Assembly: GCA_026075535.2 (NCBI GenBank)
Contig: AP026550.1
Span: 8,370,001-8,434,000 of the forward strand
DNA: 64,000 nucleotides
From: Tricholoma matsutake
Lineage: Eukaryota > Basidiomycota > Agaricomycetes > Agaricales > Tricholomataceae
Direction: 5' to 3'
Positions 15,585-51,909 of this stretch are shown one piece after another. The notes beneath the pieces were generated by a model. The model ran no database searches. It saw nothing but the letters and a program-made list of their open reading frames with translations, and was not told the origin of the DNA. Position 1 is the first letter of the stretch, and each line of letters opens with the position of its first letter. Both the position numbers and the translations under genes were made by a program.

Positions 15585-15701
15585 ATTACCGTGTTCGGCA
15601 ATGGAAATTCACATTATTCTCAAGGCAGCCGAGCAATGCCGAGTTTCCCAGAGATTGTGACATAGGTGTGACCATCTACAATCACATTCCTCAGGCTTAT
15701 C

Positions 15702-16946
15702 ATGCCAGAAACCCGCCTCTCGTCAAGGAGCCCATCAATCCCAGAGGTCAATCCCACTGGTGACTCTGCTGCTGATGTGCTCGGAGATCCTGGTGCCCAG
15801 TGCGCCTGGTCCAAGAAAGAGGAGGAGCTTCTGATCCTATTTCTCTGTGATAACAAAGATAAGCAAGCCGATGGTGGTAACTTTAGAGCCGTCGTCTGGA
15901 ATGATGCTGTCAAACACCTGGCACCACACTGCAAGAAGGGGGGTGTGAAGACAGTAAAAGCATGCCAGTCTAAGTATGCATGGGTACATGATTGTCTCAG
16001 TTACTTGATTTCTGGACTAACCACAATGACCTAGTTACAATCTGCTTACAACATGGTTACCACTCTGAAGGGCCTCTCAGGATTTTCATGGGATGCTGAA
16101 TGAGGGATGAATATTGGTGTAAATGAGAAGTGTGCTTGGGATATGTATACAGTAGTATGCCTTATCCTTTGTTGATCAAGGATTCTGATTGTGATTACTG
16201 GCTAGAAACACCTGGGCACAAAGTCTTATGCGCACAAGGGTTTTGTGCTCTATGACCTCATGGCTCCACTTATGCCCAGCCTCAGAAAAGGCAGCTATGC
16301 CTTTTGTCCATCACAACAATCCAGGGGTGCTGTTAGTATGATGTCAGTAGACCAACAACCATCGGAAACTCAGGGATCTGATCAAATGGATACTGGTCGC
16401 CTGGCTACTCCCCCAGTAAATGGTGATCCTGACCTACCACCCTTATCACCACAACCTCCACCACCATCATCTCCCCAGCGTCTGACACCATCTGTGCCAT
16501 CCACCTATGCCACATCTACATCTGCTATGTCTACATCTCCATCCGCTATGTCTACATCTCCATCCACCAAGCGCAAACAGTCCACGCTTGATGCTAGCCA
16601 GCTCCATTCAGAGACCAAAAGGGCTCGCACAGCTGCACCTCTCTCTGGTGCAGTCACACTAAATGGAATCAAGGAGACCTTAGTTACATTTAATAATACT
16701 ATTGAGCGTACTCTTGGGCAACCAGATCGAATGCGTGCTGATACATCACCAGAGCGGTGGTCTAAAGCCATGGATCTTGTCCAGGAGAAGGAGGGCAATT
16801 TGTGTGATGAACAGCTTGTTGTGCTTATTGATCTTTTCCAGGGAAATACAGGTGCAGCTGATGCTTACATATCACTGAAGTGTGACACACTCTGTCAGGT
16901 GTGGGTTCAGAAGCGTCTCATTGAGCTTGGCTTTCCTCAAGCATGA
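15702..16946 (+). pseudogene. SANT/Myb-like protein of Harbinger copy 1
   Basis: PIF/Harbinger elements encode a DNA-binding partner that brings the transposase to the element ends. Here the SANT-like block is visible as WSKKEEELLILFLC, FRAVVWNDAVKHL and KACQSKYAW (15702-15983), then after an intron at 15984-16034 comes LQSAYNMVTTLKGLSGFSWD. A TGA at 16101-16103 interrupts DAE*GMNIGVNEKCAWDMY, where Arg would fit. A second block has HKVLCAQGFVLYDLMAPLMP and a Ser/Pro/Thr-rich C-terminus that ends in FPQA at 16946. The same TGA is present in copy 2. Confidence 0.7.
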
Positions 16947-17009
16947 TTGTTGTACAAAAACGATACTATACATTCCAATATGATTCTGACTATACTACAA
17001 AGGATCATG

Positions 17010-17706
17010 TCAAACCCTACGTGTGAGCTCCTGCTGATATTGATGCCACATTTGCTGGGCAATGATTTCCTTCCTCTGATCTGCTTCTTGCTTCTCATTT
17101 CTTCTTGCAGGCCCTGTTGCCAACTCTCCTTCACGTCCTCCTGGTTGTGGATCTTCCATATCACCTGTAATGTAGTTGTTGATCTCCTCGTTGTCATATT
17201 CATGAATGAAGTTATGGATTGCTGCGAGTGCTGGTGAGATGAGTGCCTGTATGCCCATGTCTACATTAGGGCTGGATCCTAAAATCCTGAAACGATTCTT
17301 GAGGATACCAAACATTCACTCAATGATATTACGAGCTGATGCATGGCAAAGGTTGAACAATTCCGGTGCAGTAGCTGGGCTATAAGCATATAACTATAAG
17401 CTTAGGTGCGAAAGACTATACTTGAAAATTACTGCATACCGAAGCTCAGCGCGTGCCCATTCAGCAAGATGATAATGTACCCCCTGAAAAGGTATGAGAA
17501 GTGCAAGACAAATAGGAAAGCCTGCATCTGCCAGATAGTACCTATCAGGAGGAATTCTCATATCAGTGATACGGGCATCATTGAACATGGTTGAATCTGA
17601 AACAGATCCCTCCCAGCCACTGAAGATATAAACAAATCTGTAATTGAAATCGCATGTGGCAAGACAGTTCTGGGTTACACGCCCTTTGCGGTCACGAGCA
17701 ATAGCA
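17010..17706 (-). pseudogene. Harbinger-type DDE transposase, C-terminal fragment (copy 1)
   Basis: Read on the minus strand, it starts abruptly at IARDRKGRVTQNCLA, just after where the first catalytic Asp would be (DGTHFD in copy 2). It continues with WEGSVSDSTMF, YYLADAGFP (second Asp) and AEWARAELR. After an intron, the block with ARNIIE (the catalytic Glu) is followed by TGA at 17316-17318 and then MFGILKNRFRIL. The fragment ends at 17010. The first 200 or so residues are lost at the breakpoint at 17706. Confidence 0.8.
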
Positions 17707-18374
17707 CGTGGCACGTTCTTTGAGGCAGTTGGGTGTAATGGCCTCTGGAAAATGGGAACCTGTCGGGGTTCATGGTTGTGACCACAATACAGCGGGAAGT
17801 GACGGTAACCTTCTCAGTGGGGCAGGGTGTGCAGTGGCTGGAGTAGGTGGCACTGTAGAAGAATTGCTTGTAGAAGACACAGTGTGGGATGGAGGGGGAG
17901 TGGCTGTGGAGGGCCTTGCTCTCCTACCATGTCTAGTAGTGTTTTGATTGGAAGGAAGCTGGTGCACAATGAGTAATATATCAAGAAGAACACTCAAACA
18001 TAAGTACAACAATCTCTCATTCTCACTTCAAGAAGGTAGTGCTCTAGCAGGCTTATCAGGGCAGGTAAAGTGGAAAGGATGGCAGGTAGTCATTCTATGT
18101 ACACATGTAGTTAATGTAAGCAAAAGAAACCAAGGGAAACAGGGCAGAATGAAGGAAATAGTGAGCTCGCTGTCAGAGACAGTGAGCACAATGTTAGCTG
18201 ACATGGGTGGACATAAGCTGACAGTGATGGGAGAAATTGATGGCCTTGATGGTGACAGTAGTTGATGACACTGATGGCAGGTACTGATGTCCGGCACATG
18301 CTGTAGATGTCTTGGAGGAGTCTACACTATATTTATTCAAGGTTTATTGGAGGAGGGCCATACACATTTAATTC
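17707..18374. other. Region without a recognised gene
   Basis: Overlapping open frames of about 80-105 codons occur on both strands, rich in Ser, Thr and Pro or Gly and Val. None shows a known motif or clear splice structure, and I treat them as chance frames in GC-skewed DNA. Confidence 0.5.
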
Positions 18375-18495: not shown

Positions 18496-21019
18496 CTATT
18501 TGTCCAAGTTCAGCTGATGTGCACATGGTGCTGTCTTTACTGGAAAGTACTTTGCATACTTCGTGAATGCTGCTTGGGCACTCATTCCATAGTCCACTTT
18601 ACCCAAGTCCCCTGCTTCAACAGCTTCTCCAATTGTTGCATACCCTGTCTCTGATGTCTGGTACATGGTTGCCTGGTTGAAGTACACCAGGCTTCCTTGA
18701 CCGCATTCATCACCTGCTGTGATAGGCCTGGAGTTTGCAGGAGTTGGTCGCTGCAGACCATCTGTTGCCAGGAACTGAATAGCTGGGGTGCAGTAAGATG
18801 GGTAAAAAAAACCCTTTGGGAGACCTACCATGAATGTCAATGTTGAAGTGGTATAGGAGGGAGGATGGATAGAGAAGGAGCACCCAGGGTGGGAGCTCAA
18901 TCACAACCCCTGCCTCCCAGATGACAAGCCAGGACCTCATTGTGTGGTTGAAGTTCACTGAAAACCCCGTGAGCAAACTGTCTCCGAAAGAAAGGTGCAC
19001 TGACTGCCAGGAAGCTCGTAGACCAGCAGGGTGCAGGATGCCCACTATGTTTTTTTGGTCTGCATGGGGGCCACAGTGTACTCACACCTGATTTGGGAAG
19101 GAGGCGTTTATGCACAGGTTCCAATACACACCAAAGAGAGGCATGATGCCCCTCTTCTTGTACCAACTGGAGGATTCATCAAAGTGCTTGGCAACCCTGG
19201 GAAAAACCTGCCGCACAACCTGCTCCACCCACCTGCTGTGTGGGCATCAGAAAGAGAGGAGCCAAGCGCTCCAATGGCTCACTTTATCCAAACTATGATG
19301 GGCACTTCAACTTTTGCAAGGTTGTTTTTGTGGAATGCGGTGAGATCGGCGCTATAAAATCCTGGGGGTGTCAGAAGACCCCCTTGGGCTTCAGGATGGA
19401 TGGGCTTACCTGTTGGTACTGTCGCTGGTGCCCAATAATACAGGGGAAGTGGGGCCCATGGGGCCTGAGCTTGCACTTCTTCTCTAGTGATTGGTCCATG
19501 AGGGCATCGCCGAGTAGTGCCTGTGTTGCTTCAGAGAGCTCACTGGCCTGAGAGCGGAGCCACTGGGCTTGAAAGGAGCGGTAGGTGAACACGCAGCCAT
19601 CAGCATCCACGAGGAAGGTCCCCCGCTCTTTTGGAACACTTTCCCTGTGATCAGTGCGGTTTCCACACACAAGGGCTCTACTTACCTGGGAGGCACCGGG
19701 TAGGGGATGGGGAAGAACACCTGCAGTAGCTGCAGGATCTCTCCACTTTCATACAACCCCCTGAGCTCTTCCTGTATTTTTTTCGGCAGGGCCTGACCTT
19801 GCCAACCTGATGAAGATGCGGAGCCATGCTGCTGCATTGAGAACTCATCTGAGCACACCGCCTCTCCCTCTCGGAAGGTCCACTCATGAAGCCGGTGCAT
19901 TCTGCCCTCACTCACGCCTGCCTTCTGCTCCTGCTTCTCTCTCCCTGCCCTCAGCCTCTTCGACCCAAGGCCCCTCTTCCTGACCCTTTTGCTCATGGGG
20001 GCAGCTGCTTCCAGGGGCTGAGTCACCTCGATTGAAGCTGGCGCAGTCTTTTGTCGCTTCTTTGGCACTGGAGCAGGCACTGCAGTGAGCAGCTTGGGGG
20101 ACTGCTGGGCTGTGGACGGAGGGGCACATGGTGATCCATAGCTGTCTTGCTCTTAGCAAAGGGGTGAAAGGAGATAAAGGAAGCCTGAGTTGCTCACATC
20201 CACAATCCACCGGCATTCCCCCCCATCTCATGCGCATGCTTCTGGCTCTCCACCTGGAAAGCTGGGGGAGCAGGTTCACTGAGGTCTGAATCATAAATGC
20301 AGGGGAGGGCTTCTTCCACCAGCTGCCTGTTTTGAGGCTTGAGCATAGTGGACTCTGGGGCAAAACAGCTGCCTTTTGAAGCTTCTTCCTGAAGCAGGGT
20401 CCCAAGTTGGAGGCCAGAGGATTGAAGTGCCAGGAAATCATCTTTAATCTCGGAGTCACAAGCCTTGATCATGGCTGCACAAGAAAGTGGTTCATTGCAG
20501 GCAACATAGTCACTGAGAAGCATTTGTAGGCGACAGGGTGTGGCATAGAGGAGGGGAGGGGGGCTGTAGGAGATCCAGCGAGGGAAACAGACTCAACCAC
20601 TGTAGACCTGCACACACCTCATCTGATTTAACAGCAGTGTTCTCTCTGGAGTAGGGTCAAGTGCTTGAGGTGATGCAGTGCTTGTGAAAGCGGGGGATGA
20701 TGGAGTCAAGGAGGAGGATGCTGCCCTTGTGGCACCATCCCGGCAGAGATGAGAAGATGGTGGTGGTAGTGAAAAGAGAGGTGGGGAAGATGGTGAGGCC
20801 CCCATGTCGTCAAGCTCGGCAATGAGGAGCATGCGTGGTGATTCGGCAGGGGAAGGTGTTTGTAGGATAAATGAAAGAAATCGTGTTATATAAGTGGGTA
20901 CATTCAACACGTGATCGTGACGCAAAACAGTCACAGTTCTTCAAATCAGTAAAAATGTCACCTGATGCTTTGTAAGTACAAAGCACTGGGTCAAATAAGA
21001 CAGGTGTAAACCAGGCCAT
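18496..21019 (-). pseudogene. 2-oxoglutarate/Fe(II) dioxygenase, TET/JBP-like, decayed
   Basis: The family oxidises methylated pyrimidines in DNA, and in basidiomycetes TET/JBP genes are known to spread with transposons. Predicted start: ATG at 21019 (MAWFTPVLFDP). A low-complexity and basic N-terminus follows (KRVRKRGLGSKRLR), then FLVDADGCVFTYRSFQAQWL, FGVYWNLCINASF, the metal-binding HxD in HCGPHADQKN (His 19064-19066, Asp 19058-19060), SWLVIWEAGVVIELPPW, and the distal His in LLYHFNIDI (18848-18850). An intron then leads to SLVYFNQATMYQTSETGY and FTKYAKYFPV. Lesions: TGA at 19082-19084 where Arg fits, and a one-base frame shift shortly after the HxD block. The residues of the active site are kept. 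The TET/JBP assignment rests on the HxD...H layout and recalled fungal relatives, and a more general 2OG oxygenase is possible. Confidence 0.6.
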
Positions 21020-21454
21020 TGTAAATTTGCATTGGATATCCTTCTGACAGCGAGGCTTTGCTGGTTGAAACCCTCTGAGCCACGCATGAGTGAGACAAGT
21101 AAGACAAGTAAGATGGAGCAATCAAGCTTCAAGTTCAAGAGTTGGGTTAGTACTTATATGGCCATATGTCACATGACATGAGCTCAAAAGTGTGCATGCA
21201 CACTTTTGCTCAAGGTTACATCATCAAGGTTACATCATCAATCAAGACTCTCAATCCGGAAAAAAATAAACATTCTGAGTCAGTGAGTTATTTCAGGTCG
21301 CCGTGGGCTGAATGACTTTTCACCTCTGTATTTTCAAAGAATCTGTGAATGGTACATGTTGACTGTCTCTAATGTGTCCAAGTCCAAATCCTCCTGCCAG
21401 GATTCCACATCTGAAAGCCCTTCATCAGAGGTCCCTCCTAGCAGTTCATTTTCT
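20986..21454 (-). repeat. Left arm of a 470-bp inverted repeat (Plavaka tail, promoter, start codon)
   Basis: This segment is the inverted counterpart of 30862-31334, highly similar along its length. Read on the minus strand it holds the end of a Plavaka reading frame (LLGGTSDEGLSDVESWQED, then DMYHSQIL-like end), a 24-bp perfect palindrome (21185-21208), a TATA-like CCATATAAG, and the start codon of the dioxygenase gene at 21019. The match ends sharply at 21454 inside the Plavaka tail, so only the last ~35 codons of that Plavaka copy remain. Confidence 0.88.
21185..21208. promoter_or_regulatory. 24-bp perfect palindrome upstream of the dioxygenase gene
   Basis: The core is GTGTGCATGCACAC with matching AAAA/TTTT and C/G flanks. 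An identical palindrome lies at 31108-31131 upstream of the JmjC-like gene. It lies between the Plavaka stop and the TATA-like site, so it may be a binding site for a dimeric regulator or transposase. Confidence 0.6.
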
Positions 21455-21636
21455 AAAATTGATCATATATACAAGTATCACCCTCCTCCCAGACAACAGA
21501 CAAAAAGACACAGTGCATCTATACAGGAGGCTAGGGGTTGTCCAAATTGAGACAGTTAAAATAAAATTCAAGCAGAAAAAATGACTTCAGCACACCAAAC
21601 TAAGCCCAACTTAGACAGGGCTCAACCCTTCTCCCC

Positions 21637-23241
21637 TCAGCTGTATGGGTGGTAGTACCCAGAGGCATAGCCAAATGATCCATCACCTGGTGGGAGTGCT
21701 TGGCTGGTACTGCTAGCACTTGCATCAAATGGTCCTGGATTCTGGTAAACGAACCCATCCTCTGCCAACCATTGTTGGTACTTAGGATCAACATAAGCAG
21801 GCATGAAGCTGGGGGTGTAGCCGGGGCCTATTGTATAGTTGGCCACACCGTACACATTTGAAAGAAATGGTGCCTCCCCAGGATTGGAAGGCATTCCTGT
21901 GATGTCACCTCGCAAAGTCATGGCAGGGTCAAATGGAGCCTGCCCACTATCGGAGAAAGGCTCTGCCCAGCTGTCTGGCTGCTCGGTGGGAACAGGAGCT
22001 GGCTGGGAGGATGGGCCCATTGAAGGGATGATGGCTGGGCCTGGTTCATTCCTGCTGTATCCCATGTTCCAGATTCTCCTCCATGTCATCTCCTCTTCTG
22101 GGTCATCCCAAAGAGCCCTCAGCTGCTCAGTTAGCACATGTTGCTTGTTCTTCCATTTATCACCACTAAGGTAAGTTGAGGGCTTTCCCCTTTTACTCAC
22201 CCACTTGTCTCCATCCCTGGACTTACCAGCTGCTTTTGAACTAGCGTTTTTCTCAGCAACCTCCTGCAATGCTGAGCAGAGCTTGAGCAGGGGTGAGTGA
22301 CAGAATGTGATCCATGACCCATGCACCTATGCAAATAGTGAGAAAGGAGATGCACCTGAAACCCAGGTGCGGCATGAAGAGCTCCTTGTTCAACATCACA
22401 GCTGGTGACTTCACAACCTCGGCCGTGAAAGCCTTCAGCCCATCGCTCCTGAAGAGCTCGAAGACCTTTCCCTGTTGATAGTTAAGCTCGGTCCAACCTC
22501 TTCATACAGCATGAACTTCAGCTTACCTCTTCATCGAGCCCATGGACATAGCCTTGGTTGTCAAGCAATTCTTTTGCCTTGCAGGCAGCATGCTCAACGT
22601 TCTTTCCTGCTAGCTGCTCCTCTGAGCACCCCGAAGCCTGCTCTTCTAACAGGTCCAGCTTGTAGAAGCGGTGCACATTTCGTCTTGCAAGGCTGTAGAT
22701 GTTGGTCCATGAAGTCTGGACCTGCTTGGCAACCTGTAGCTAGCATCAAAAGCATACCCCAAGTCCTTGGAATTTAGATGCACACGAGTGACCATATCCT
22801 CAGGCCAAGATGTGGAATCTGCTTCAACAACTTTGACACTCATGAGCAAAACACTGGTTAACTGGAGTGCTGGGCACTTACCAGTTTGTCTCAACCGCTC
22901 ATACTCCACCTTTGCCTAGCGGAGTGAATCAACTGCACTCTCCTGCCATGCAGCCATGTCCTCAAAGCCGAGGGTTGCAATCGCAAGCCCACTCATCCTA
23001 TTTTTGGCAGTTAACTCAAAGTAGTCCATCATGTCTGAGCTGATCTTTGCCTTCTGAGAGTAGCAGGACCCAGATGCAGCAGTCTTCCCAGTGCTTGCCT
23101 TCCTGTATTTGCTTGACCTCTTCTGAGATGACTCAACATTGGAAGGGCATGAGCCTGCAGACTCTGAGGATGAGGAGGAGCCTCCCTTGATCTGCCTCCA
23201 CTTCCCCTTTCCACCAACCATCTCCATTGAAAGTGGGGCAA
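21637..23241 (-). pseudogene. Unrecognised gene upstream of the dioxygenase
   Basis: I do not recognise this protein. On the minus strand, blocks read in order: GGKGKWRQIKGGSSSSSES with a Ser/Lys-rich start, AKISSDMMDYFELTAKNR, AKVEYERLRQTG, VVEADSTSWPEDMVTRVHLN, VQTSWTNIYSLARRNVHRFY, KVFELFRSDGLKAFTAEVV, SPAVMLNKELFMPHLGFQ, and after an intron SWITFCHSPLLKLCSALQEV, then a Pro/Gly/Tyr-rich C-terminus ending in YYHPYS at 21637. A TAG near 22918 interrupts SLR*AKVEY where Gln fits, and short introns are needed elsewhere. It is co-oriented with the Plavaka remnant and the dioxygenase, so it may be a further passenger of the same element. Confidence 0.45.
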
Positions 23242-24252
23242 CCGGTGTGACTTTGGTTTTGACTCTTAGTAGGGGAAGGGACGAATCTGGAACTGCTGTT
23301 GGAAGTGCCAGTTAGAGATGAGTTTGCACATTGCTCACAAGCCTTGCCTCAAGTCAGTGTCATGACTGACATTGCCTGGAGGTCTGGAGGTCTGTCATAA
23401 CATCAGTGCTTCACCAGCCTGCAGTTAACATCATGACCAAACTGGTCTAGGGTCAAGGTGACAGATCCCTGGAACCCCTGCCACCAGCATGGCACAATTT
23501 ACATTTTAGCCTCATTCGCCCTTAGGTCAGGACCATGGCTGACCTTGCATATACTGATCAAGCTGCCAGTGGTCTTAGATCTGTAATGATATGGTGAGTA
23601 CTTGACCGAAGCTTGCAGTGAGAGCAACATGATGCAGAGCTTATTCAAGATTGCCATGGTCATAAAAGCCACTATTTGGTGTGAGGGTCTGATCAGTCAG
23701 AAGAGGTGAGTGCTTTTGATCATTGCCTTGCCAGTGGTATCAGTGCAGTGCCATTCCAAATCCATCGATTGAATTACTATAAATTGAATCAGCAGGCTTT
23801 CACAGAGAGAGAGAGCGAGCCATAGCACACATGTTTTAACTTTCTTCCTTACATGCTCTTGTGGGAGCCATTCATTGACAGGGAAGTAATCCTATCCTAT
23901 AAATAGATCTTGATCGATCACTCAAGCACTCAAGTACTCACATAGCTGAGTGCTCTCCATCCTGACCCCACCAAATCTGACGACTGACCATGTCATGAAT
24001 CATTGAATCTGGGGCTCAGTGCTTAAGCCTCATCTGGGTATTGAATGACCAGAGGATACTCCTGTGCATAGTTATGTATGCTGGTTTCTGCATCTCATCT
24101 CATCAGTGAACTTGAAGCTTGAAGCGATGCTTCATTTATGCAATAAAACTACATTCTGGGTTCTACAGTGCCCTACTTGATATCTTTGGCTAATTTCTTT
24201 ATGGCGGACTCTGTCAAGGGAGTAGCAGTGCTAGTAGGAGTCAGTATTACTT
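23242..24252. other. Region without a recognised gene
   Basis: AT-rich sequence with a short GA run near 23805 and a TATA-like CCTATAAATAG at about 23896 on the plus strand. No convincing open frame follows the TATA-like site. Confidence 0.5.
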
Positions 24253-24631
24253 CTACATCTCTAGTGTCTTCAGCACTTCAAGCATCCTCAATAGCCATTC
24301 TCTCACTGCCTTGAGACTGACTGGTCTCAGAAGTGCCATCTTCAGAGATGCATCCAGCAGATGGCTGGACATCAACTTCATCCATGGAGGCAGACACCTG
24401 ATTGCTGCTTTCTGGATCCACAATTTCATGGAAATAATCCTGCATGTGAGCGATGTCCTCACTCATTTCCTCCACCCGAATATGAGCTATCTGAACTTGG
24501 TCCCGCAATGATTGCAAAACACATTCTCCCTCTAACACCCGATTTGAAGCAACCTGCAGCTCTAAACGCAGTGTATCCCGCATCGCCCAAGCTATCACCA
24601 ATTCTTGATGTTGAGATTTTTTGTCGAACAT
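24253..24631 (-). CDS. Short coiled-coil-like reading frame, unrecognised
   Basis: One frame of 117 codons reads with regular hydrophobic spacing (ELVIAWAMRDTLRLELQ, then LRDQVQIAHIRVEEMSED), which suggests a coiled coil, and ends in an acidic and Ser/Gln-rich tail. It may be the last exon of the decayed gene upstream (25.4-26.2 kb), which is on the same strand. No function can be proposed. Confidence 0.3.
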
Positions 24632-25407
24632 GGAGTAGGAATTATCGAACTACAGAGATAATCAGTTACCCATGAATGGACACCAAAGGCTACACCCACT
24701 GTGCGGGCCCAATGTGGTGACCTGATCTTTGTATAAACTGTTTGAGATCCCAAAACTTTGGAGTATTGTGTTCATGTAAACTGGACTGGCCCTGACAAAC
24801 CAGAGCACACCTGTGATGGAGATGGTGAAGCCATGGTGATCTGCCTCAGTGCCGGGTTCATAAATGGATTTTGGTGTGAAGCAGTGGGTATCACAAACTT
24901 ACTAGGGCAACGTCGCAGGATATAACCTGAAGGCTGAAACCTCAACTTACATGGGTCAACACCTTTATGTATAGGAGGGACTATAGGTGCTTCAGTCTGA
25001 TTCTGACTTCAGTCAGGGCGCTGAGTGAAAGTTGAAACATGATGTTCGAGATCTGTCACTCAAGATGGTCACACCACATACACTCAGTAAGGTGAGAAAA
25101 TTTCCCAATTCATCAATTAGTCACATTGATATGCATGACATGTGTGATCATGTTTGTTTACCAAAGTTATTGCTAGTTCACTCCTTTATCAACATCGAAC
25201 GACATGGATCCAAGCATCCCAAATATGACTCACATGGCAGCAGGCATTGTCTCAGCAACTTTCTTGGCATGGACTATCAAGGCTTGGCAATACAAGTTTG
25301 GCTTCAATGGCTCCGAATGTGGAAATACACAGCGGTATAGCTTGCTCTGCATAACTCGACATTGGATGGCCAAATTTCTATACACTAGTATTGCCATCAA
25401 ATATGTT
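24632..25407. other. Region without a recognised gene
   Basis: Short open frames on both strands overlap with no motif. It separates two unrecognised minus-strand coding blocks and may be an eroded part of one gene. Confidence 0.4.
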
Positions 25408-26246
25408 TCAAACAAAGTGCTCCTCCGTCACACAATCATGGAAGCAAGCAGTCTCACAGGTCATGAACTTATTGCAAGATTCGCAATTTGCAAAGAGCGA
25501 TGAGAATCTATCAATTGGAAGCCCACACATTTGTGGTTGAAGTATGTACTCCTTATCGCTGGTGTGGGAAAGTGCCTTCTGGTGCTGTGAAAGCACCTGC
25601 TCGCACTCGTGATAGAACTTGTTCTGGCTTGGGAGACAAGTGTGGCACTCATTGCACTGAGTGAAGAGAGAGGAAAACTGCTCCTGAGTGACACTGGCAT
25701 TAATCACCCAATCCATTTGTAATATAAGGGCATAGTTGGGAAGTGGCATGTTTGATGGGTCAAAGGTGTCGAATGCTACATCTAGTAAACAGAAAGACAA
25801 ATTTATTAAGGCATAGAATAAAGGATGAACATGGCAGTACATGCCTCCATATGTGAATGGCCTTACAGTGGAGCATTGCTGGACTAGGATGCTATGCTGG
25901 GGTATCTTCTCCTTGGCATCTGAGTCAAGGTGAGAACTCGCAAAATAGCCTAACACTTTGACACACCGTGAACTGCAAAGGTAAGGCTCCGTGGTGCCTC
26001 CGAATCGGAGTTTTGCATCAGACTGGCCAGTAGCACGTGTCCTTCATGAACTACAGCAGTCCCTTGGGGCGTGGGAGTGTGGTCTATCAAGTCAGAAGAC
26101 TCGATGATGAATGCATACTTGCGTTTGAGGCCGCACATGATCTGAGTTGTGGAGTTGGTCATAGGAGTGGACGGCCAAGTAGCAGAATGCGACATCAAAG
26201 AAGATATGCAGGTCTTGTGAATCTGGCTGCCCCCAGCTTTATACAC
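25408..26246 (-). pseudogene. Unrecognised cysteine-containing protein, eroded
   Basis: Two overlapping frames give one plausible protein: KRKYAFIIESSDLIDH and VVHEGHVLLASLMQ in the first, then with a one-base shift LGYFASSHLDSDAKEKIPQH, LLDVAFDTFDPSNMPLPNY and paired cysteines in CNECHTCLPSQNKFYHEC and CESCNKFMTC. The CxxC pairs followed by a spaced His and Cys suggest zinc binding. The frame shift between the two halves means it is broken as it stands. It is divergent from Plavaka copy B and is about 600 bases from it. Confidence 0.35.
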
Positions 26247-26851
26247 ATTCAGCCATGTGTAGAAAACTAAATGAGCAATCAGAGAAATGACTATTTGGCG
26301 GAGCAGAGGATCAGGGAGATGACTGCTTGAATTCCTGAGTATGTCACATTGCCATCAAGCATCACAATTATTTTCCCGTCTAAGCATAGCACAACTCACA
26401 GAATTCTCTGCCAATTCATAAGGGGAATTTTGACCAGGCTGCTGATCCACTGACAGAATATAGAATTAGGCTCGCATGAATTAGTTGAGTCTTGGCACTA
26501 CGCAGCGCGTGTTTGATGGATGATCCAAATTTGACCGCATCCCCAACTCTCTCGATGACGCTAGTTTTCTGCATCTCGCAATCACTGTGCAACCATATGG
26601 TGTTCATTCTAGGTGGATGTTTCCCAGCCCTGCACTGCAGTGTGTTTGTGGCAAGTTGTTCTTGCAGCACCCTGCTCTGAATCATCATATGCAGACATGC
26701 GCCTGGGCCAAAAAGCAAATTACAAGCGCGCTATCAAAGGCAAAGCAAGCATTTGGAGAGTGAAGAGAACGAAAATGGCAGCGGCAGGAAGAAAGTCTGG
26801 CAGCTCTCAATTTCAATGAGGAAGTTGTAGCATCAGCACCAGTGAGTCTTA

Positions 26852-29800
26852 TTGATTTTTTCATGCGAATTGAGGGCTGACTTGGATCCAGCAGTGCCTG
26901 TTTTTGCATTGACTAGTTGCCTGTCAGTTCACCTCCACCAGCCAGTCACTCAGCACCAGAAGTGGAGGTACATATGCCTTCTGGGGCTGATGTGGACAGC
27001 CACCTGTCATTGGCGCAGAGAAGGCAATGGTGCCAGGTGCAGATTCCAAACAGATACCAGGACAATCTGCCCCAGGCTTCTGCCTCACTGCCTCCTCCGA
27101 GTGAATCATACACCGTCCAACCAGAGGAAGCTGATGGAGGTCCTAGTTCTACTGCCAGTAGTAGCTTTCCCACAAGCAACAATCTTTTGGTGGACAAGGA
27201 ATCAGGCCACCCAATCTTGCGATCACCTTGCAACGCTTTTGGTTTATCACGCTGCTATTACAGTACCAAGTACCCATCCCACGATCCAGAGGAGTTCAAT
27301 GACTTCAATGCACTGTCTGATGTCAGCAACCCCCCACTGAGTCATGAAGTGGACTTGGGGCCTTACCCAAATCACAGCTCCTTTGCTCTAGGGGAATGGT
27401 ACTGGGGTGACAGTGTACAAAAGACAAAAAAAAACTTTAAAAACCTCATAGACATCATCACTAGGCTGGACTTTCACCCCAATGATGTCAGAGATACCAA
27501 ATAGGATTCTATTGACGATGAACTAGGTGGGGACAGAGAGGTGATGTGGGAGGATGAAGACAACTTGGCCCCTGGATGGCAGCAAACATCTGTAACCATT
27601 CAAGTCCCATTCCATCGCTTCACTGCATCGCCAGGCCTTCAGGACTATGTTGTTCATGATTTTTGCCATCACAGCATTGTATTGATCCTAAAAGAGAAAT
27701 TGATTGATGATCATGAGTTCCGGCATTTCCACATTGAACCCTATGAGCTCAAATGGCAGCCAGCCCATCAGGGAAGCTCTGCATCAGAGGACCCATCGAT
27801 CCGGGTTCACGGCAAGCTTTACACCTCACCAGCCTTTCTTAAAGCCCATATGGAGCTGCAGGCATTGCAGGGAGAGCCTGGGTGCAGCCTTCCATGTGTT
27901 GTTGTTGGATTGATGTTTGCCTCGGATCAGACTCATCTTACTTCCTTTGGCAAGACAAAGCTTTGGCCTTTGTATTTATTCTTTGGGAATGACTCAAAAT
28001 ACCATTGTGGGAAACCCTCACTTCATCTTTGTAATCATGTTGCATACTTCTGTAAGGTCAGTATCTTAGCCCATTTGATGATGAGGTTCCTTAGCTTTTT
28101 TCCCAGCTTCCAGACGAGTTCAAGGACTTCATCACTTCTAAAACTGGGGGCAAAGGCCTCAGCCCAGCTTTTATGCCATACTGTAATTGAGAGTTGTTCC
28201 ATGCACAATGGAAGGCCATCTTAGATGATGAATTTGTTGAAGCATACATCCACGGTGTAATTGTAACATGTGCAGATGGGCTTGCAAGGTGGTTCTACCT
28301 TTGGATATTCACATACTCGGCAGATTACCCAGAAAAGTAGGCTATTCAGCACCACTTCATTCATGCCTTCACTTTATAACTGAACACAACCAATAGGATT
28401 TTGCTGGTCGGCATAAAAAACTTGGGGAGCCATCCATGCCCTCGCTGTCTTATCCCTCTGTCTGATGCCTTTAAAATTGGAATGGCCCATGATGCCAGGA
28501 GGCAACAGACCCTCGCTCAGAGAGACACTGCAGCCCGTCGAAGGCACATCTCCAATGCCCGAAAGTTCATCCAAGAGGGAAACTATGCCATTGATAGTGC
28601 TCCAGTGAAGAGATTAATGGATGCTGAGTCAATGATCCCCTCTGTGGTATGCTTGCCAGTGGTTGCTTCTCTTGAGTACTGGGGTAATTTTTATTGTTCT
28701 AAGAACACATTTTCTGACATACTTGCTCCATTGGGCTTTGACATGTTTCCCATGGCTGTTGTTGACATCATGCATGAGGTGGAGCTGGGCACATGGAGAT
28801 CCCTGTTCATCCACCTGCTACGCATCTTGGAAAGTGCAGGGCCTACCCACAGTACCCTTACTAGTGAGCTAGATCAACGGTGAAGTGCCTTTCACAAAAT
28901 CATCATAACGATGCTGCAGCACTGATGCACTCAGATTAGATACCGGGAAGTGCCAACGTTTTCTTGAGACACAATTCAAAAGTTCTCGGTGAACTGCTCT
29001 GAGATGAAGCAGCTTGCTGCTCGTGACTTCGAAGATCTCCTACAGGTTAAGGCTACCAAAGAGTCAGGCTCCCTTACTTACTGGAGTTATTTAGTGTGCA
29101 ATCCCAGTCTTCGAAGGCCTTTTGCCAGAACCTCACAATAAACGGGTTTTGAAGCTACTTTTCCTCATGGGCCATTGGGATGGTCTTGCTAAACTGCATC
29201 TTCACACAGATGCAACTCTAGCAATCTTGGATAGTGTGATGGCATTGCTAGGCCAGGCCCTCCGCGAGTTCGAGATGAAGACTTGCTCCATGTTCACTAC
29301 TCGCAAACTTAAAAAGGAGGAGAGTGCTAGAAAGCGCAAGCAGGCCACCCAGAAAAAAACATCCCAGGTCAAAAAAACCCCCCCAACCCAAGAGCTAGGG
29401 CTGGTAATGGTGACAGGGCTGTGGTAGCAAAAGACAATGCAGCAAAGGCGAGTAAAGGGCTAAAGGAATTCAATATGAGCACCTACAAGTACCATGCCCT
29501 AGGGGATGTTGCTAACACGATAAGAGAATATGGCACAACAGAATCATACTCTACGGAACTGGTAAGCACTGCACATGAGTCTCTTTGTTATCTTTATACT
29601 TCATGTTCTTGACCAGGGTGAACTGGAGCATCGCACCACGAAGTCCAGATACAAGTGGATGAGCAAAAAGAACTACCTGAACCAGCTGGCTCAGATTGAG
29701 CGACACCAGGCCCATGTTTGCCAAATTCAAAGGAGACTGAATGCAGGAAAGGCCTCTCACTATGATGAGGTGGAGTATGCATCCTCACCAATGCCAAGAT

Positions 29801-30982
29801 ACTGCATTGAAAAATCACAAAACAAACCAGTAGTTCTCCCAGTATTTTTGCAGGACAATCGCGGTGACCCTGCTGTCAAGGTGAGTAGGATTGGCAGACT
29901 GCTTTATCCATTCTAAGGCCCCTGCTGCTAGGACTTCCTTTCGAGATTAAAAGCCCACCTTCTCCCTAGAATCCAGCTTATGGTGCAGCAGGAAGCCTCC
30001 TCGGCACTGCATCTTTCATCTTCATCCAGAGATCCTTGCAGTAATGGCATCAACCATGTCCTATTCAAAAGTGACCGCATATATAACCATTGGCTAGTTT
30101 GAATCAACTACACTGCCTATGATGTCTGCTGAGCCCAGGATGTTCTGAACCCAAACACAACACACCACAACATCATACTCTTAAATAGTATGGGGGAACA
30201 ATGCCACCCTTATCTTTATGCACACATTCTGGGCGTTTATCACACAAACATCATTTATGTAGGGCCAGGAATGGTCGACTATAGCCCTAGACAACTTGAT
30301 TTCCTATGGGTGCGATGGTATCAGCATTGGGAGGTAGCTGATGGCAGTGACATAATGGGGTGGAAGGCTCACCATCTTGATCAGCTATCCTTCCCTCCCA
30401 TGGCCAGTGAGGATGCCTTTGGTTTTGTTGATCCATCTGATGTCCTGTGAAGCTGTCATGTCATTCCCTGATTTGCAAAGGGGAAGCGGCACTCAGACGG
30501 GGTGGCCCTTTCCAAATGTGCTCAAGATGGTGAAGATTGGAAGGAGTACTATGTGGGACGGTGAGTGGATCAGAACTTGAAGCAGGTTTAACATGACTGA
30601 TAAGGACACTGACTTTGGTGCCATCAGCTTTGTAGATCGTGACATGATGATGCATTATCACTGGGGCCAAGGCATCGGGCACACTTACTGTCATGATTCA
30701 AACCCTGTTGCTCATGACTCCTTGCCTCAAATCAAACAGCCTGAGGACAACGAAGCTGATGGCCTTGAACCGTGGATATGTGGAGAGCATGGACACAATA
30801 AAGTCAGAGGTGAAGAGGGTGTGGAGGGACTTGATGCACTGGAGTATGGTATCAATGAAAGAGAAAATGAACCACTAGGAGGGACCTCTGATGAAGAGCT
30901 TTCGGATGTGGAATCCTGGCAGGAGGATTTGGACTCAGACACATTAGAGACAGTCGACATGTACCATTCACAGATTCTTTGA
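26852..30982 (+). mobile_element. Plavaka-type DNA transposon copy B
   Basis: This is the longest Plavaka copy in the window, with most of the transposase reading frame in recognisable order, followed directly by the inverted-repeat segment that leads into a JmjC-like gene. Terminal inverted repeats were not recognised at either end, so the borders are those of the coding region. Confidence 0.75.
26917..30982 (+). pseudogene. Plavaka transposase, copy B, decayed
   Basis: The transposase has a putative RNase H-like fold and would mobilise the element. Blocks in order: YPSHDPEEFNDFN, VDLGPYPNHSSFALGEWYWG (27350-27420), PFHRFTASPGLQ, FHIEPYELKW, GLMFASDQTHLTSFG, LWPLYLFFGNDSKY, DGLARWFYLWIFTYSADYPE, the Cys pair in HPCPRCLIPL (about 28432-28460), MFPMAVVDIMHEVELGTWR, REVPTF, GLLPEPHNKRVLKLLF (29110), YHALGDVANTIREYG, DFLWVRWYQ, FVDRDMMMHYHWG and an acidic tail ending in YHSQIL at 30982. 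Stops include TAG near 27502 and TGA at 28965-28967 (Arg expected), and several frame changes cannot all be introns. It is dead as it stands. Confidence 0.75.
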
Positions 30983-31334
30983 AAATAGAGAGGTGAAAAG
31001 TCATTCAGCCCATGGCAACCTGAAATAACTCACTGACTCAGAATGTTTATTTTTTTCCGGATTGAGAGTCTCGATTGATGATGTAACCTTGATGATGTAA
31101 CCTTGAGCAAAAGTGTGCATGCACACTTTTGAGCTTGTGTCATGTGACATATGGCCATATAAGTACTAACCCAACTCTTGAACTTGAAGCTTGATTGCTC
31201 CATCTTACTTGTCTTACTTGTCTCACTCATGCATTGCTCAGAGGGTTTCAACCAGCAAAGCCTCACTGTCTGAAGGATATCCAATGCAAATTTCTGGACA
31301 ATGGCCTGGTTTACACCCATCTTATTTGACCCAG
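30862..31334 (+). repeat. Right arm of the 470-bp inverted repeat
   Basis: Inverted, highly similar partner of 20986-21454. In order it contains the last ~35 codons and stop of Plavaka copy B, two tandem copies of GATGATGTAACCTT (31076-31104), the 24-bp palindrome, a TATA-like CCATATAAG, and the start of the JmjC-like gene (ATG 31301, MAWFTPILFDP). Similarity ends within codon 11-12 of that gene, so the two genes share promoter, leader and N-terminus but not the rest. Confidence 0.88.
31108..31131. promoter_or_regulatory. 24-bp perfect palindrome upstream of the JmjC-like gene
   Basis: Core GTGTGCATGCACAC with A4/T4 and C/G flanks; identical to 21185-21208. It is located about 30 bases upstream of the TATA-like site at 31152-31161 and 170 bases before the predicted start codon. 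Confidence 0.6.
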
Positions 31335-34300
31335 AGGGTACAAAGCATTTGGGCCAAAGTCACCCAGAATTTCAGGTAAGAATTCAAGACTTCAGCTTCA
31401 ATACCTATCCTGATAGTTTAAATTGTGTTGCAGAAATTTATTGATACTACTACAGGCTGGGAACAACTGGAGATGACATCTGATATTCAACATGCTTGCT
31501 GAGTCCTTAAGCATCTTGCTGAGTCATCTACCCCTGGAGAGCCTATTTCAAAGCACCAAGCCATTGTTTATGGGGCCCTATTCAACTACCAACTGTTGGA
31601 CATCGTAGCATCAGTTTACAACCTCCTTCCTGACGAGATCGCCCCAGCTAAGCAGAGGGCTGCTGAAGTGTCTATGCCAATGTGCTTGGTCACTTTTAAT
31701 TCTGCACCATTATGTGACAGTACTAACAGGGCACTTTATAGGATCGTAAAGGGGTTTTTGCAGACTGGCCAAAACTCTTGGAGCAGGCAGGACAGGATCT
31801 AGCCCAAGTGCAGGGTCTAGCCCAAGTGCAGGGTCTGGCTAGCGATGTTGGTGTGATGGGGGAAAATGGGCCTGCAGCATGCTTCCAGCTCCTTTCTAAA
31901 TTCACCTCAACCAAGAATGTGGCCCGGAGGTCTTACAACTTTATCGCATCAGCATTTGATCTTTCACTGCAGTTAAATGTTTGTGGATAGTGTTGAGAGC
32001 TTTCAGTGAATTGCTAAGGACCGTTCTTTTCTTACAGAGGGACATCTTAGGATTATGAACAACATATTGGACAACTTTTATCCGTGAGTTAATGGGTATT
32101 TATGTATTGGAATATTTGTTACATGATAATATTGCAGGCAAGTGAATGGCTCTGGCCCAGATCTGAAACTGGCCTTCAAAGGCACTAACTGTGCTGCATC
32201 GATGGAGATCCCCCTCTGCATTGCACTGGGGATTTCTCCTCTCTGCTTGTTGACAAAGAGGCCTCTGATTGAACAAAAAATAAGCAAGAAAGCAATTTTT
32301 AACGCAAGTACTATCTATGAAATTGTTACATTGTTGACTGGTTTTGTAGGTTTGGCAAGCCCTGGGCACTCATCACCCCAAGATTCTTTCTGACATTGAA
32401 AAGATCTTGTGGAAAGCCCTCTTTCAAGCCGCGCATTCCCCTGACTCCCTGGAGGATATCCTGTGGGCAGCTATAGATGCCTCACTCGTGATCCTCTGGT
32501 CAAGTGCTGAAGATGATAGATGTGTGTTCTGGCTAGGAGGTCCAGGTAAGATACTTGTTTCAGTTTTGTAACCTTTCTGATCTTGTGAGATACAGAGCCA
32601 AGTATTGCTGAAGATGATGGAGATGATGGGGAGGATGGACAGTATGAAGACAATGGTCATGGGAGAGATGAGGACGGGCATGCAATGCATCAGGCAGGAG
32701 CAGGAGAAGGATGTTGTGCAACTGGAGAGCTGCATCAGGGTATGCTGGGCACTGAGAATGGCACACAAGTAGTGCAGCCAAGTAGTAGTGGCGTCCAGGG
32801 ATCAAGAAACCCGCATAAGAAAGCAACGGTTGAGGATGAAGAGGAGGAGCCATGCCTTCCACCCATAACATCAGAGGAGGATCTGGGTCCTGGAGTAGTC
32901 CTTCTGATTGTTCATCTGGCAACTCCGCAGCACTTCTCTGAGCAACCACACCCTCAGCAGACAACAGGGCATTCACTAGTAATGCAACAGAGACAGCTTT
33001 CCAACCTGCCGCCTGATGGAGAAGATGAAGATGACTCACATATGACGGGACAGGACTGGCATGAACATACCGACAACGCTAGGGATGTCAATGGTGGTAT
33101 CGGTATGTGCAGATACTGTCACAAATAGCCCAGCTCAACTGTTGCACAGAGTCAGAATTGCCAGACATTCTGGCTGGAAAAGTAGCTGGCATTGAATGCC
33201 AACAGGCGAAGCCAGACTCTCCCTTAGTGTTTCGACGCTCTGAACAAAAACACTCCTCACGATCAAGTGCTCTTACAGAACTTATGTCCCCCTCGAATAC
33301 CAAGAAGAGGAAGCGCAAGGAGATAGAGAGCCTGGGGGCTTTGAAAGAAAAGCGTACTGAGGCCAAGAGGCAGGAGACAAGGAAGCAAATATGCCAAGAG
33401 ACAGGGAGACAGCAGATGGGGACAGGGATGGAGAGCCAGGGTCTATGGGAAGCATTAGAGGGGAGGAGCACTTTTGAGGAACAACTGGATGGCAGGCTAC
33501 TGGAATTCATTGACCTTACTCTGGTGGAGGTAAAGGAAGACATGGTGAGAGCTGTTGCCCATTCCTCACACCGCTAGGCTCTGAACGCAGAACAGCAGTC
33601 TGAACCTGATATTACTTTTGCATGGGAGGACATTCCTCCAGAGGGATGTGGCTGTAAATGATGCTATTATTCCTAAGCATACTGTTTTTTAGATGTTTGT
33701 GGCCCCTCAATCTCTTCCCCTGTATGGGCCTGAGTCCACAATCCCATATAATTATACAGCTGGCTTTCATGTAGGTCATGTTGGCATGCGTTGTCAGCCT
33801 TACTGATGTAAAAGCAGTCCAAAGCAGTGTTGAAGTTCTTCTGTGATGTATGGAATGCAGTTTCCAGGGGATTCGTGGATGGTCTGCCCCCTCATCTACA
33901 ACCCAATAGCTCTCACTCAATCTTTCATGTGATGCGGTCAACTGAATGTGCTTCTATGCCACTGGAAGTGATTTGAGATATCTTCAGCCATAAATGTATC
34001 ATCATCACTGACAAGCCTATGCAAATTGTTCAATTTGAGGCAAATGGCATGTCCACCATTTCACCCAAGCTGAGTAAAAGAATCACTATTCAGGGTCAGT
34101 AACTCCACATCGCACTTTTGCTAGACTAAATACCCTCACAGATCACTCCCTTCCTGAAGATGATGAGGGAAGGATAGCATTACGCATTGGAACCCCTGAA
34201 GATTTACTACAAAGCCACTGAGCAGGGGATGGTGGGAAGATCCTCAATGCCCTACACTTTCCACTTCCCTTGCCACCTATTGATTGCATGCCTCTGCCAT

Positions 34301-35680
34301 CATTAGCAAGCAATGAGTATGCCTGCAGATTCTCAGTTCTGCAAGGTCTCATACCATCCATTTCCCTTCGCTAGTTTAGCTTGGGGCCTGGCAGCGACAT
34401 CAGGTGCCCATCATAAGTTCCACCTTGATGCTGATGGATTTGGTACCCACATCAAGGTCATCAGTGAAGGGGGATGCAAATGGTGGGTCATTGCAACTCC
34501 CAAAAATCCCCAGGCACTTGCCAGCACCCTGTTGTTCACTGGGAGCTTTGGCATTGACGATGTGGATGTGGATAACTATGATTTTGAAGCTGTGCTCCTC
34601 ACGCCTGGCATGGAGCTGTGAGTCATTTTTTGCTTTTTGGATTTGGGATGATAATACAGGATGGATAGGAATATGAGGCCCGGTACATTGCATGCTGTGT
34701 TCACTCCCAAGTCTGCTATCTGTTTAGGTGGCCATTTCTACAGCATCGGAACCATCACTTGTACAGTCTACTCCATCATCCACACCTTTGTTGGCAGCCA
34801 GACTCTGACAAATATGGAACATGCCACCAATTCTAGAACCCTTCTTTGCTGCCTCCTTATCCATATTTATGAGGAATCAGTGGCAAGTGGGTTTTCAGCC
34901 ACTCCAGAGCAGCCAATCCCAGTAGGGAATCATCTTCCTGCATTTAATACCTGGGAAGGAGTCATCAAAATCGTCAATCTCGTCAATGTCATAGAACTTG
35001 AAGAAGTTTTGCATTGGCAGACGTATACTCAAAATGGCTTATCGTACAAAGAGCAGCAGGCCATGAAGCATTGCCATAAACTGGGTAGAGAGCTCCTGCA
35101 CTGGCTATGGTGCAACTACAGCTTCAGCATCTTTGCGGAACATGCTGGATCATGGGATAAATGGAGAATCTTTTATTTTACAGGTCTTGCTAGCCAAACT
35201 AAGGCCATTTCCTTCTATCTTGAGCGGGCATTAAAGGTGAACTTGAAGCCAGAGGAAGATGGCTGTACATCCGAGCAAGTGGTTGCAGCTATTTACCAAG
35301 TTTTCCAAAACAACTGACTATTTTGGAGAGCATGGCACACCATCAATGACAGTCATTCCCAACAGTTCTTATCATGGACAGATGCAAACTTCAAGGTCTC
35401 CATCAGACAACCTGTGAAGTGTTTCCCTGCAGATGAATTTGGTTTGCATGCATTTTGTATAAACATCATTAAGCTGACTTGTTCCCAGATGATAGCATAG
35501 AGATGGGCCCTCTTGAAGACAATGACAAAGATGATGATGATGACAAAGACAAAGACAAAGATGAAGACCAGGACGTGGAAATGGATGGGCATTCAGAAGG
35601 AGGTTCAGGAGAGGACTCAGTGGAGGAGAATGCTCGTATGTGGAGATTGGACCTATCTTTAGTTCCTGTAGCTCACTGAT
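31301..35680 (+). pseudogene. JmjC-like dioxygenase gene linked to Plavaka, decayed
   Basis: JmjC proteins are 2-oxoglutarate/Fe(II) oxygenases, many of which demethylate histones. Start: ATG 31301 (MAWFTPILFDP), shared with the dioxygenase on the left. After an intron at about 31376-31435 come KFIDTTTGWEQLEM and KHQAIVYGALFNYQLLDIV. A long acidic and Gln-rich middle (32590-33110) and a Lys/Arg-rich block (33290-33430, KKRKRKEIE) follow. The JmjC-like core at 34380-34780 shows the metal-binding HxD in KFHLDADGFGTH (His 34421-34423, Asp 34427-34429), the distal His in GTLHAVFTP (34691-34693) and AICLGGHFYSIG. A helical C-terminal part runs to 35317, then an acidic tail (DKDDDDDKDKDKDED). TGA at 31500-31502 and several frame changes mark it as decayed, though metal ligands are intact. 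The JmjC call rests on motif spacing only. Confidence 0.5.
34313..35317 (+). CDS. JmjC-like catalytic region (best-preserved segment)
   Basis: Two consecutive open segments (34313-34621 and 34661-35317) joined by a short intron near 34623-34660 carry the core of the JmjC-like protein. The HxD motif, a GG-x-W-W-V-I strand, the distal His and the ICLGGHFYS strand are all present. C-terminal helices include YKEQQAMKHCHKLGRELLHW. Listed separately because it is the segment most useful for a structure-based search. Confidence 0.5.
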
Positions 35681-41128: not shown

Positions 41129-41997
41129 TTTGCAGTTGGTCCAATTATACTGGGTGATGGCCTCAGGTGGGGTTCTTCTAGGCATGGTAACAAACAGAAA
41201 GCTGGCCGTCTCTTAGATATCTTGATCACAATTCAGATTTCATGCAGCTATTGTACATTTGCAGATTTAATCTGTTGCTCATGAACATTACCTAGGTTGG
41301 CTCAATTGCATTCATGATCCTTTCTTCAAACTATGTCTGGTTGGTGCTTCATGAAAGTAAATGGCATTATTCTACCCTCGATGAATTTGGCAAAGGCTAC
41401 TGTCCTTTAAAATTCATTAGCAGCCTACCTGCAAGACTTATGGATGTGTTGGACATTTTATATCATACCAGCTTTTATATAGTGTAATAAAGTATGGTCA
41501 ATGTAACCGCATTTTCCTGATGAGGGGGCACGACAATGACACCTGCAAATGAGCCCCACGATGACCAAAAGTTTTTTTTCTTTTCTTTTCTTCTTATTCA
41601 ATTGTACTAATAAGCAATTCTACTTCATTTTCTAGGGAAAAACTCGACCAGCTACGCTGAAAATGGGCACCCTGACCCCAACCGATGATATGCAATGTGT
41701 ATTGTCATTTGGGGCATGTAAGTTTTTTCTTTTCTTTCTTTCTTATTCAATCATACTAACCATTAGATTAATTGATTTTTTAGGGAAAAAACTCGAGGAA
41801 TCACCCCGTGCCCCAGGTGATGAACAAAGGAGGAAATGAGAGGGGTGGAGCAGGGAACAGATGGTGATGGGAGGGGACAGCGCTCAGAGGCCCATATAGG
41901 GCAGGTATGCACCCCACCCCTCTTTTACCCACCACCTCACACTGATGACCCCCCACCACCTTCCCCAGGGCATGACGAACCAGCACCTGCCACATGT
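41129..41997. other. Region without a recognised gene, two intron-like T-rich tracts
   Basis: Two tracts, at 41570-41636 and 41720-41783, have the look of introns: T-rich, CTAAC- or CTAAT-like branch sequence and an AG end followed by GGAAAAA. They flank or follow TCATTTGGGGCATG-type words, as in the modules at 43.3-43.8 kb. No coding frame connects them. Confidence 0.4.
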
Positions 41998-45662: not shown

Positions 45663-46289
45663 AAGCATGGACAACGGGGGAACAAAAAGACTAAAGAGGA
45701 TAAGCCCAAAGAGAAGCATACCCACCTCACCTCCAGTGCCTTTACCACTATAAATGGTAGTGGCACCATCATACCACTGATGCCACTCATTCAGCACATC
45801 AAACAGTGTGACCACACTCCCACAAGGGACCCTCACCGCCAACCGCCTGCACAGGCATATATGGGCCTCTCATTTGGTTTATGCCAAATATCAGCAAGCT
45901 CAAGACACCCTCGAGCAAATGCAACTTCTGCGCAGCGTGAAAAATCTGTGACAGCTGGAAGAGCACCTGACAGTGCAAGAAGGTAAGAGAAGGAGGAGTG
46001 AACTGGAAGACCCTAGAATTGTGGAGGTAGAAGACAATACTGTCTCCCTCAGATCAGAGCCTCCAGTCTCTGACAAAGAAGTGTGGAAGGCCATCGACAA
46101 AATGCTCGCCGATGAACCACTTGACATTGGTGGATATGATGACAGGTCATTCCTTTTCCCTGCCACAAGCACTAAGATTAATATTCCAATGAATGCAGTG
46201 AACTTTTCATGTGAAATTTTACCACTATTAAATGTATCATGGAATTATTTAGATCTTAATATATGTGTTTTGTGTGCAAATGGAAATTG

Positions 46290-47940: not shown

Positions 47941-48589
47941 TCCCCTCTGACATAGAGAGAGACATTGCGCATGATCGATATTGGAAGAGATCTGTGGGTC
48001 AAGATTCAGATCATAACTGAACATGACCATGATCTCAACAGCAAGAACTGGTTGCTGGACTGAGTTTGGCACCCCACAAGAGTGTGCCCGATTCCAATAA
48101 TCAAGAACATGATCACCCAATGGGGGAACTGGTGATGATGCTCAACCCAGAAACCCAAAGAAAACCCACAAAATGGCTTCAGATGGTATAACACAAGTCA
48201 GAGGAAGGATGCGAGGCCTTCTAGACATCACCTGTCAGACCGACCGTCAAATAATCATAAAATAACTGCTTGTCAAAGCAGTTTGAAGCTAAAAGAATGT
48301 GTTTTGAGGAGTTGCAATGATTTTCAAGATGTTGCAATGATTTTTGAGATGTTGCAATATTTTTCGAGGTTTTTTTGGAGAAGGTTCGAGGAATTTCGAG
48401 TGCACAAATATGTTCGGATGCAAGATCAGGAGACTAGACGAGTAGTAGAAGTGAAACAAAGGTGAATCGAGGGAAACGAGAGCACAAATAGTGTAAGGTC
48501 ATGTTCAGAACACAAATGGATTTCTTCTCCCACATATATTTTGCAAATTTTGCTGATTAGATTAGTCAGATTTGGAAAAGCTGTCATGC

Positions 48590-49110: not shown

Positions 49111-49206
49111 ATATAGTGACTACACAAGATAATACCATTTGCTTTAATGGGATAGGTACTCCTCTGTATATATATTTCACAAGATATGTTTGTCGGTTAA
49201 TCTTCT

Positions 49207-50516: not shown

Positions 50517-50579
50517 CACGATCCTTTGTAGTATAGTCAGAATCATATTGAAATGTATAGTATTGTTTTTGTACAACAA

Positions 50580-51746: not shown

Positions 51747-51909
51747 CAGTGGGATTGACCTCTGGGATTGACGGGCTCCTTGACGAGAGGCAGGTTTCTG
51801 GCATGATAAGCCTGAGGAATGTGATTGTAGATGGTCACACCTATGTCACAATCTCTGGGAAACTCAGCATTGCTCGGCTGCCTTGAGAATAATGTGAATT
51901 TCCATTGCC

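Follow-up and report, generated by a model that had tools for sequence, protein, structure and literature searches.

A giant PlavakaB-type transposon of Tricholoma matsutake with TET-like and probable JmjC-like genes beside copies of one segment

Described TET-bearing transposons and the matsutake element

PlavakaB transposons carrying TET genes have been described in Agaricus bisporus and Gymnopus confluens, with CATCA..TGATG termini and target site duplications (TSDs) of 2 or 3 bp as hallmarks of PlavakaB (Kojima 2025; PMC12730594). Countering silencing by methylation is the presumed function of the TET enzymes that transposons carry; according to the same paper, it has not been experimentally validated. 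Here, a giant element of PlavakaB type is described from Tricholoma matsutake, one copy of which lies in the stretch of 64,000 nucleotides analyzed (G000:C13:8370001-8434000; hereafter the window), the genome searched comprising 13 contigs with 161,040,721 bases. With the Agaricus and Gymnopus elements, it shares the Plavaka transposase, the CATCA..TGATG termini, the TSD length (2-3 bp), and TET/JBP cargo. However, whereas the TET proteins of those elements are of the PE type (HxE), that of the matsutake element has HxD and is without a CcTET sequence match, and its duplicated promoter-like arms are a feature not described for the TET-bearing PlavakaB elements in the published text compared here. 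The main text of that paper (PMC12730594) does not use the term JmjC at all (0 occurrences).

Kyakuja/Zisupton elements with AG-type TET genes are likewise a case of transposon-borne TET/JBP dioxygenases amplified in agarics (PMC12730594). Their transposase, however, is different from the Plavaka transposase of the matsutake element. Elements of this kind were reportedly treated by Iyer in 2014. The nearest parallel in the literature considered is Amoebidium, where JmjC genes of KDM4-like type occur in endogenised giant viruses, and giant repeats flanked by Plavaka attain lengths of up to 50 kb (PMC11244446). Both systems have in common invaders of a methylating host that bear histone-demethylase-like cargo, and giant Plavaka-associated repeats. 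Unlike in the matsutake element, the Amoebidium JmjC genes are KDM4-like and lie in viral insertions, and the text on which this comparison rests mentions no TET partner. No transposon with both TET and JmjC was found among the literature matches listed (titles and beginnings of abstracts), and an earlier mention is possible. TET-bearing Plavaka elements are already published; what appears to be new is the pairing of a TET-like gene with a probable JmjC-like gene beside apparently gene-converted copies of one segment.

The matsutake locus is probably best explained as a giant PlavakaB-type transposon with TET-like and JmjC-like anti-silencing cargo, each gene standing beside a gene-converted copy of one segment. 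The assignment to the PlavakaB type is based on the transposase domain, the termini, and the TSD length. The transposase gene (26917-30982, + strand), in several exons and decayed frames, ends within the right arm of an inverted repeat and gives a PF18759 (Plavaka) match at 27505-28224 (E 9.5e-8; 32.1 bits versus a cut-off of 26.3), with its other frames placed by eye. The left end of the element, CATCAGGAAAA, and its right terminal inverted repeat, TTTTCCTGATG, fit the PlavakaB form 5′-CATCA..TGATG-3′. In the window, the latter lies at 41512-41522 (+ strand), and this right terminus is common to other copies; the window copy (17710-41522, + strand) has lost its left end at 17710 and has an intact right end, so that the feature, to which the earlier note had given the extent 18496-35680, is instead part of a larger element. 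Seven other genomic copies are collinear with it at ~95% identity, and 2-bp TSDs (AA, CA, and TT) were found in all three insertions with both ends read, including a C2 copy of 31,403 bp (AA) and a C4 copy of 35.7 kb (CA). A 450-bp terminal-only derivative resembling a miniature inverted-repeat transposable element (L043:1067-1516) has TSD TT and is without arms.

When typed landmarks (ends, arms, TET, and JmjC) were grouped genome-wide, 47 clusters were obtained, some of them with a single landmark. Both genes are present in 13 clusters, TET alone in 12, and JmjC alone in 7; the order left end, TET, left arm, right arm, JmjC, right end is shared by 5 of the 47. Both arms are present in 12 clusters, in inverted orientation in 11 of these. 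The genome-wide arm query (40 of 51 candidates scored) gave at least 43 matching pieces. A ~470-bp segment lying mostly apart from Plavaka or oxygenase genes would have contradicted the earlier note, and this was not the case in the source genome: by a count made by eye, 26 of the 27 arm-bearing clusters also hold a TET-like and/or JmjC-like gene, the exception being C9:6379471. Recurrence of the arrangement as part of a mobile element is supported. In one copy (G000:C2:6561591-6604582), the TET gene and left arm block are inverted relative to the other copies. Furthermore, window position 17978 divides two subfamilies, which are the same rightward of it, with C12, C1a, C4, and C7 unlike C2a, C2b, and C2c leftward. 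A Pfam search of ten further frames of the element yielded nothing below E 0.1, an NCBIfam search of six proteins gave none, and no KDZ transposase was matched among the element frames scanned (part of all frames).

The segment duplicated in front of both genes

A ~470-bp inverted repeat containing both gene starts had been reported in the earlier note and was borne out by BLAST of the window against itself: 20986-21454 (left arm, − strand) matches 31334-30862 (right arm, 30862-31334 on the + strand) in inverted orientation over 473 columns with 95.1% identity, a second comparison giving 96% over 432 ungapped bases. An assembly artefact was ruled out because the repeat recurs at many genomic loci. 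The contents previously listed for the shared piece (Plavaka end, palindrome, TATA-like site, and first codons) are present in both arms by alignment, as are CATATAAGTAC, ATGGCCTGGTTTACACC...TTTGACCCAG, and ATGGCCTGGTTTACACC..TTATTTGACCCA. The right arm has what is probably the original context, the true Plavaka end and then the next gene, and the left arm consists of an orphan Plavaka tail, palindrome, TATA-like site, leader, and ATG, with the orphan copy of the last ~40 Plavaka codons (21334-21454, − strand) aligned to 30862-30982. The right arm is the only one whose Plavaka tail forms the end of a Plavaka gene, and it was therefore probably the source of the duplication. The 22-bp perfect palindrome AAAAGTGTGCATGCACACTTTT occurs in the window at 21186-21207 and 31109-31130 alone, even with 3 mismatches permitted (mean 0.00 in 100 shuffles), and its 14-base core is confined to the arms in the 31.4-kb C2 copy. 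The TATA-like sites at 21153-21159 (− strand) and 31158-31164 (+ strand) precede the shared ATG by 139 and 143 bp, respectively, the inequality being due to a 4-base gap. The two genes had been called unrelated beyond codon 11, but the likeness of the arms does not stop sharply there; it fades gradually, with ACAAAGCAT common slightly further on.

Comparison of 10 TET-side and 7 JmjC-side arms showed a single fixed difference between the two sides, at the ragged edge. Outside 47 CpG-prone columns of 465, the mean distances were 0.0068 among TET-side arms, 0.0092 among JmjC-side arms, and 0.0079 between the sides. Arms of the same element are closer to each other than expected by chance (p 0.014 over 5,040 pairings, 7 elements). 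A transversion private to C2b and a 9-bp unit private to C12 are each found in both arms of the element concerned, and the spacing from TATA-like site to ATG is equal in both arms of C2b, C7, C4, C1a, and C12. Because single-element variants occur in both arms and spacing matches within elements, the arms appear to have been homogenised within each element by gene conversion.

The shared ATG stretch is identical throughout the 17 aligned arms. Nearly every one of these arms also retains an intact TATA-like site, which is absent from the C2a right arm, and the palindrome is altered in some. The JmjC-side frame, MAWFTP[VI]LFDPEGT..., continues up to a GTAAGA donor, the shared start and exon-1-like frame in the window being MAWFTPILFDPEGTKHLGQSHPEFQ (31301-31375, + strand). 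On the TET side, ACAAAGCATCAG directly follows codon 11 in C4, C1a, and C12 and is preceded by 12 extra bases in C7 and 13 in the window, C2a, C2b, and C2c; the TET-side frame differs between copies because of the presence or absence of these bases. Since neither first exon could be joined confidently to its oxygenase domain, we infer, rather than observe, the use of the shared ATG, including its use as the start of the TET gene. As to the proposal that both oxygenases stand behind one element-derived promoter and start, two different 2-oxoglutarate-oxygenase-like genes indeed have their starts next to copies of a single segment derived from Plavaka, with that segment as a putative promoter.

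The TET-like and JmjC-like genes and a second family

The TET/JBP-like dioxygenase gene (18496-21020, − strand) is intron-containing and decayed; should the shared ATG be the one in use, its start falls within the left arm. Its earlier designation stands, the TET-type double-stranded beta-helix fold having been confirmed on a homologue of the window protein and the HxD...H ligands being kept: among 46 TET homologues, H356 is invariant, and H300 and D302 are nearly so. AlkBH, FTO, and PHD2 scored clearly lower than the TET rows and were not regarded as close relatives. The window model and a 12-row alignment have HxD, and hence not the HxE of the PE type. The recognisable CcTET similarity of the AG type was not seen either, with no PDB match to the window model at E ≤ 1 and no CcTET among 10 matches to the 46-row profile at E ≤ 5.

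The JmjC-like domain exons (HLD...H; 34130-35317, + strand) are frameshifted near 34306 in the window copy, where the frames read GAHHKFHLDADGFGTHIKV...CKWWV...RPGTLHAVFTPKSAICLGGHF and show the HxD...H ligands in JmjC order (FHLD ... HAVFTP). At E ≤ 5, the spliced model matched five KDM2A sequences alone in the PDB (best E 0.11, non-significant), and in the KDM2A alignment the HxD, the distal H, and GGHF coincide. A relative from the second family described below had a KDM7 homologue as its sole PDB match at E ≤ 1 (E 0.36, non-significant), with the ligands aligned, and the same homologue was the sole match of a six-row JmjC profile at E ≤ 10 (E 0.82, non-significant). Thus, the protein resembles the KDM2A/KDM7 demethylases in its HxD...H ligands and aligned GGHF/GGNF motif, but the similarity is weak (E 0.11 to 0.82). 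A JmjC identity nevertheless seems highly probable, and the chemistry would be that of JmjC enzymes. A first protein search for relatives gave 4 short matches, and a longer query gave none. Among viral contigs, no relative of the TET-like or JmjC-like protein was confirmed.

The genome-wide JmjC-like query (108 of 214 candidates scored) matched at least 112 places, with 20 loci in the giant element and 55 others taken; from 123 places matched by the TET query, 44 loci judged to be outside the giant element were taken. Of these 44, 23 have a JmjC locus no more than 30 kb away, against 0.89 expected if placement were uniform, and 18 have one no more than 10 kb away, against 0.3 expected. In 20 of the 23 pairs, the two genes share a strand and TET is the downstream one; 32 of the 55 JmjC loci are without a TET partner within 30 kb. 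A second multicopy family is seen at G000:C12:3862004-3869660, C5:3402919-3410550, and ~20 similar loci, with its genes mostly on the same strand, 6-9 kb apart, and most TET frames without stops. Its JmjC exon pair (L045) and the JmjC-like gene of the giant element keep the HxD and distal H at ~47% identity in the first exon, and its TET exon (L046) is homologous to the TET type of the window (98%). A transposase of this family was not found by proximity among the 150 matches listed for each of two transposases: for Plavaka, a match lies within 30 kb at 4 of the 55 JmjC loci, against 3.0 expected, and at 2 of the 44 TET loci, against 2.4 expected; for KDZ, the counts are 0 against 3.0 and 2 against 2.4, respectively. 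CxC2, compared by eye, was rejected as a carrier, its matches lying near three TET loci, all without a JmjC partner.

Both window genes had been called decayed, which fits the variation among copies. The TET region (8 copies) has 351 biallelic sites, 87% of them transitions and 199 in CpG context, and the JmjC region (7 copies) has 502, with 89% transitions and 305 in CpG context, the CpG-context share across both regions being 57-61%. Because the sites are mostly transitions, many in CpG context, the decay fits the CpG hypermutation reported for T. matsutake (PMC6980582). No codon-position pattern was seen among these 351 and 502 sites. Since their insertion, the copies under comparison appear to have been drifting, and evidence for selection comes solely from conservation between families and species.

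Proposed anti-silencing role, rival explanations, and neighboring features

In the mechanism proposed, a ~31-kb PlavakaB-type DNA transposon would carry a divergent TET-like dioxygenase (− strand) to the left and a JmjC-like oxygenase (+ strand) to the right of its transposase. The segment comprising the last 40 Plavaka codons, the intergenic stretch, and the start of the next gene would have been copied, inverted, in front of the TET gene, with gene conversion maintaining the near-identity of the two arms, and promoters of one kind would drive both oxygenases. The TET-like enzyme would oxidise methylated bases and the JmjC-like enzyme would take off repressive histone methylation, keeping the element transcribed and mobile ahead of host methylation and mutation. 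Such a dual anti-silencing function is a credible proposal, and predicts measurable changes in 5-methylcytosine/5-hydroxymethylcytosine and in H3K9/H3K36 methylation at the element itself. If true, the pairing of TET-like and JmjC-like genes in two families would mean that transposons attack both silencing layers jointly, and a route is suggested by which a transposon copies its own intergenic segment and thereby standardises the expression of captured genes. Tentatively, and with more doubt than for the mechanism above, DNA-mark and histone-mark erasers may form a dual-layer module, co-expressed from two promoters that gene conversion keeps nearly alike, and taken up within a single genome by no fewer than two mobile families of long divergence.

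Several results weigh against the mechanism proposed for the ~31-kb element. For the protein on the right, which the earlier note had called a JmjC-like oxygenase, the support is at the level of the HxD...H motif: PF02373 did not match the JmjC-like proteins, and none of its 27 matches in the genome lies at the window gene; a five-row profile (A3) had no PDB match at E ≤ 1 and profile P0002 none at E ≤ 10; the 10 weak matches of profile P0004 were 4 Csm6, ranked first, 1 ygbM, and 5 KDM7/PHF8; hhalign against KDM2A/KDM7 gave a probability of 1.6%; and a structure model from 5 sequences was poor (predicted local distance difference test score 38.5). A PF20515 scan was also without match, but its controls were equally silent. 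The gene could therefore encode another cupin or non-oxygenase fold, or else a relative that has lost its catalytic activity, leaving TET with an uncharacterised passenger, a reading that is improbable given that the HxD and distal H are kept in two families so divergent and that KDM2/KDM7 recur as matches across different queries. The remaining contrary results concern the arrangement: the 19 clusters with just one of the two genes, for which truncation would give the same picture; a small excess of distance between TET-side and JmjC-side arms that shows with the CpG columns counted in (0.0045; label shuffle p 0.0026); the inconstant TET-side frame after codon 11; and the lack of a codon-position pattern, that is, of codon-level constraint since insertion.

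The last two results, together with arm boundaries that fade without a motif, would also suit a structural accident, in which the arms are an abortive-repair duplication hitch-hiking in one master copy, the promoter-like segment and its shared ATG are incidental, and the genes use their own downstream starts. This is rather unlikely, in view of the invariant ATG stretch, the nearly always intact TATA-like site, and the good GTAAGA donor downstream on the JmjC side. A role of the arms in transposition or recombination instead of transcription, as factor-binding palindromes or an invertible core, would suit the perfect 22-24-bp palindrome with its core confined to the arms, the inverted orientation, which favours recombination, and the C2:6561591 copy with its inverted TET-arm block. 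However, the arms lie ~10 kb inside the element and seem dispensable in cis because the 450-bp terminal-only derivative with its TSD exists without them, and such a role is very unlikely.

The truncated left side of the window copy adjoins a DDE_Tnp_4 element (15591-17712, − strand; PF13359, E 2.1e-10), which forms an inverted pair with another at 49814-51915, 32 kb apart and 95.8% identical. Elsewhere in the window, by eye, a frame at 1079-1741 resembles the C-terminal part of another Plavaka transposase, frames at 45952-54153 and 62448-63050 resemble Copia polyprotein remnants and Gypsy-type gag, and a frame at 6157-7110, probably a host gene, resembles an App1-type phosphatase.

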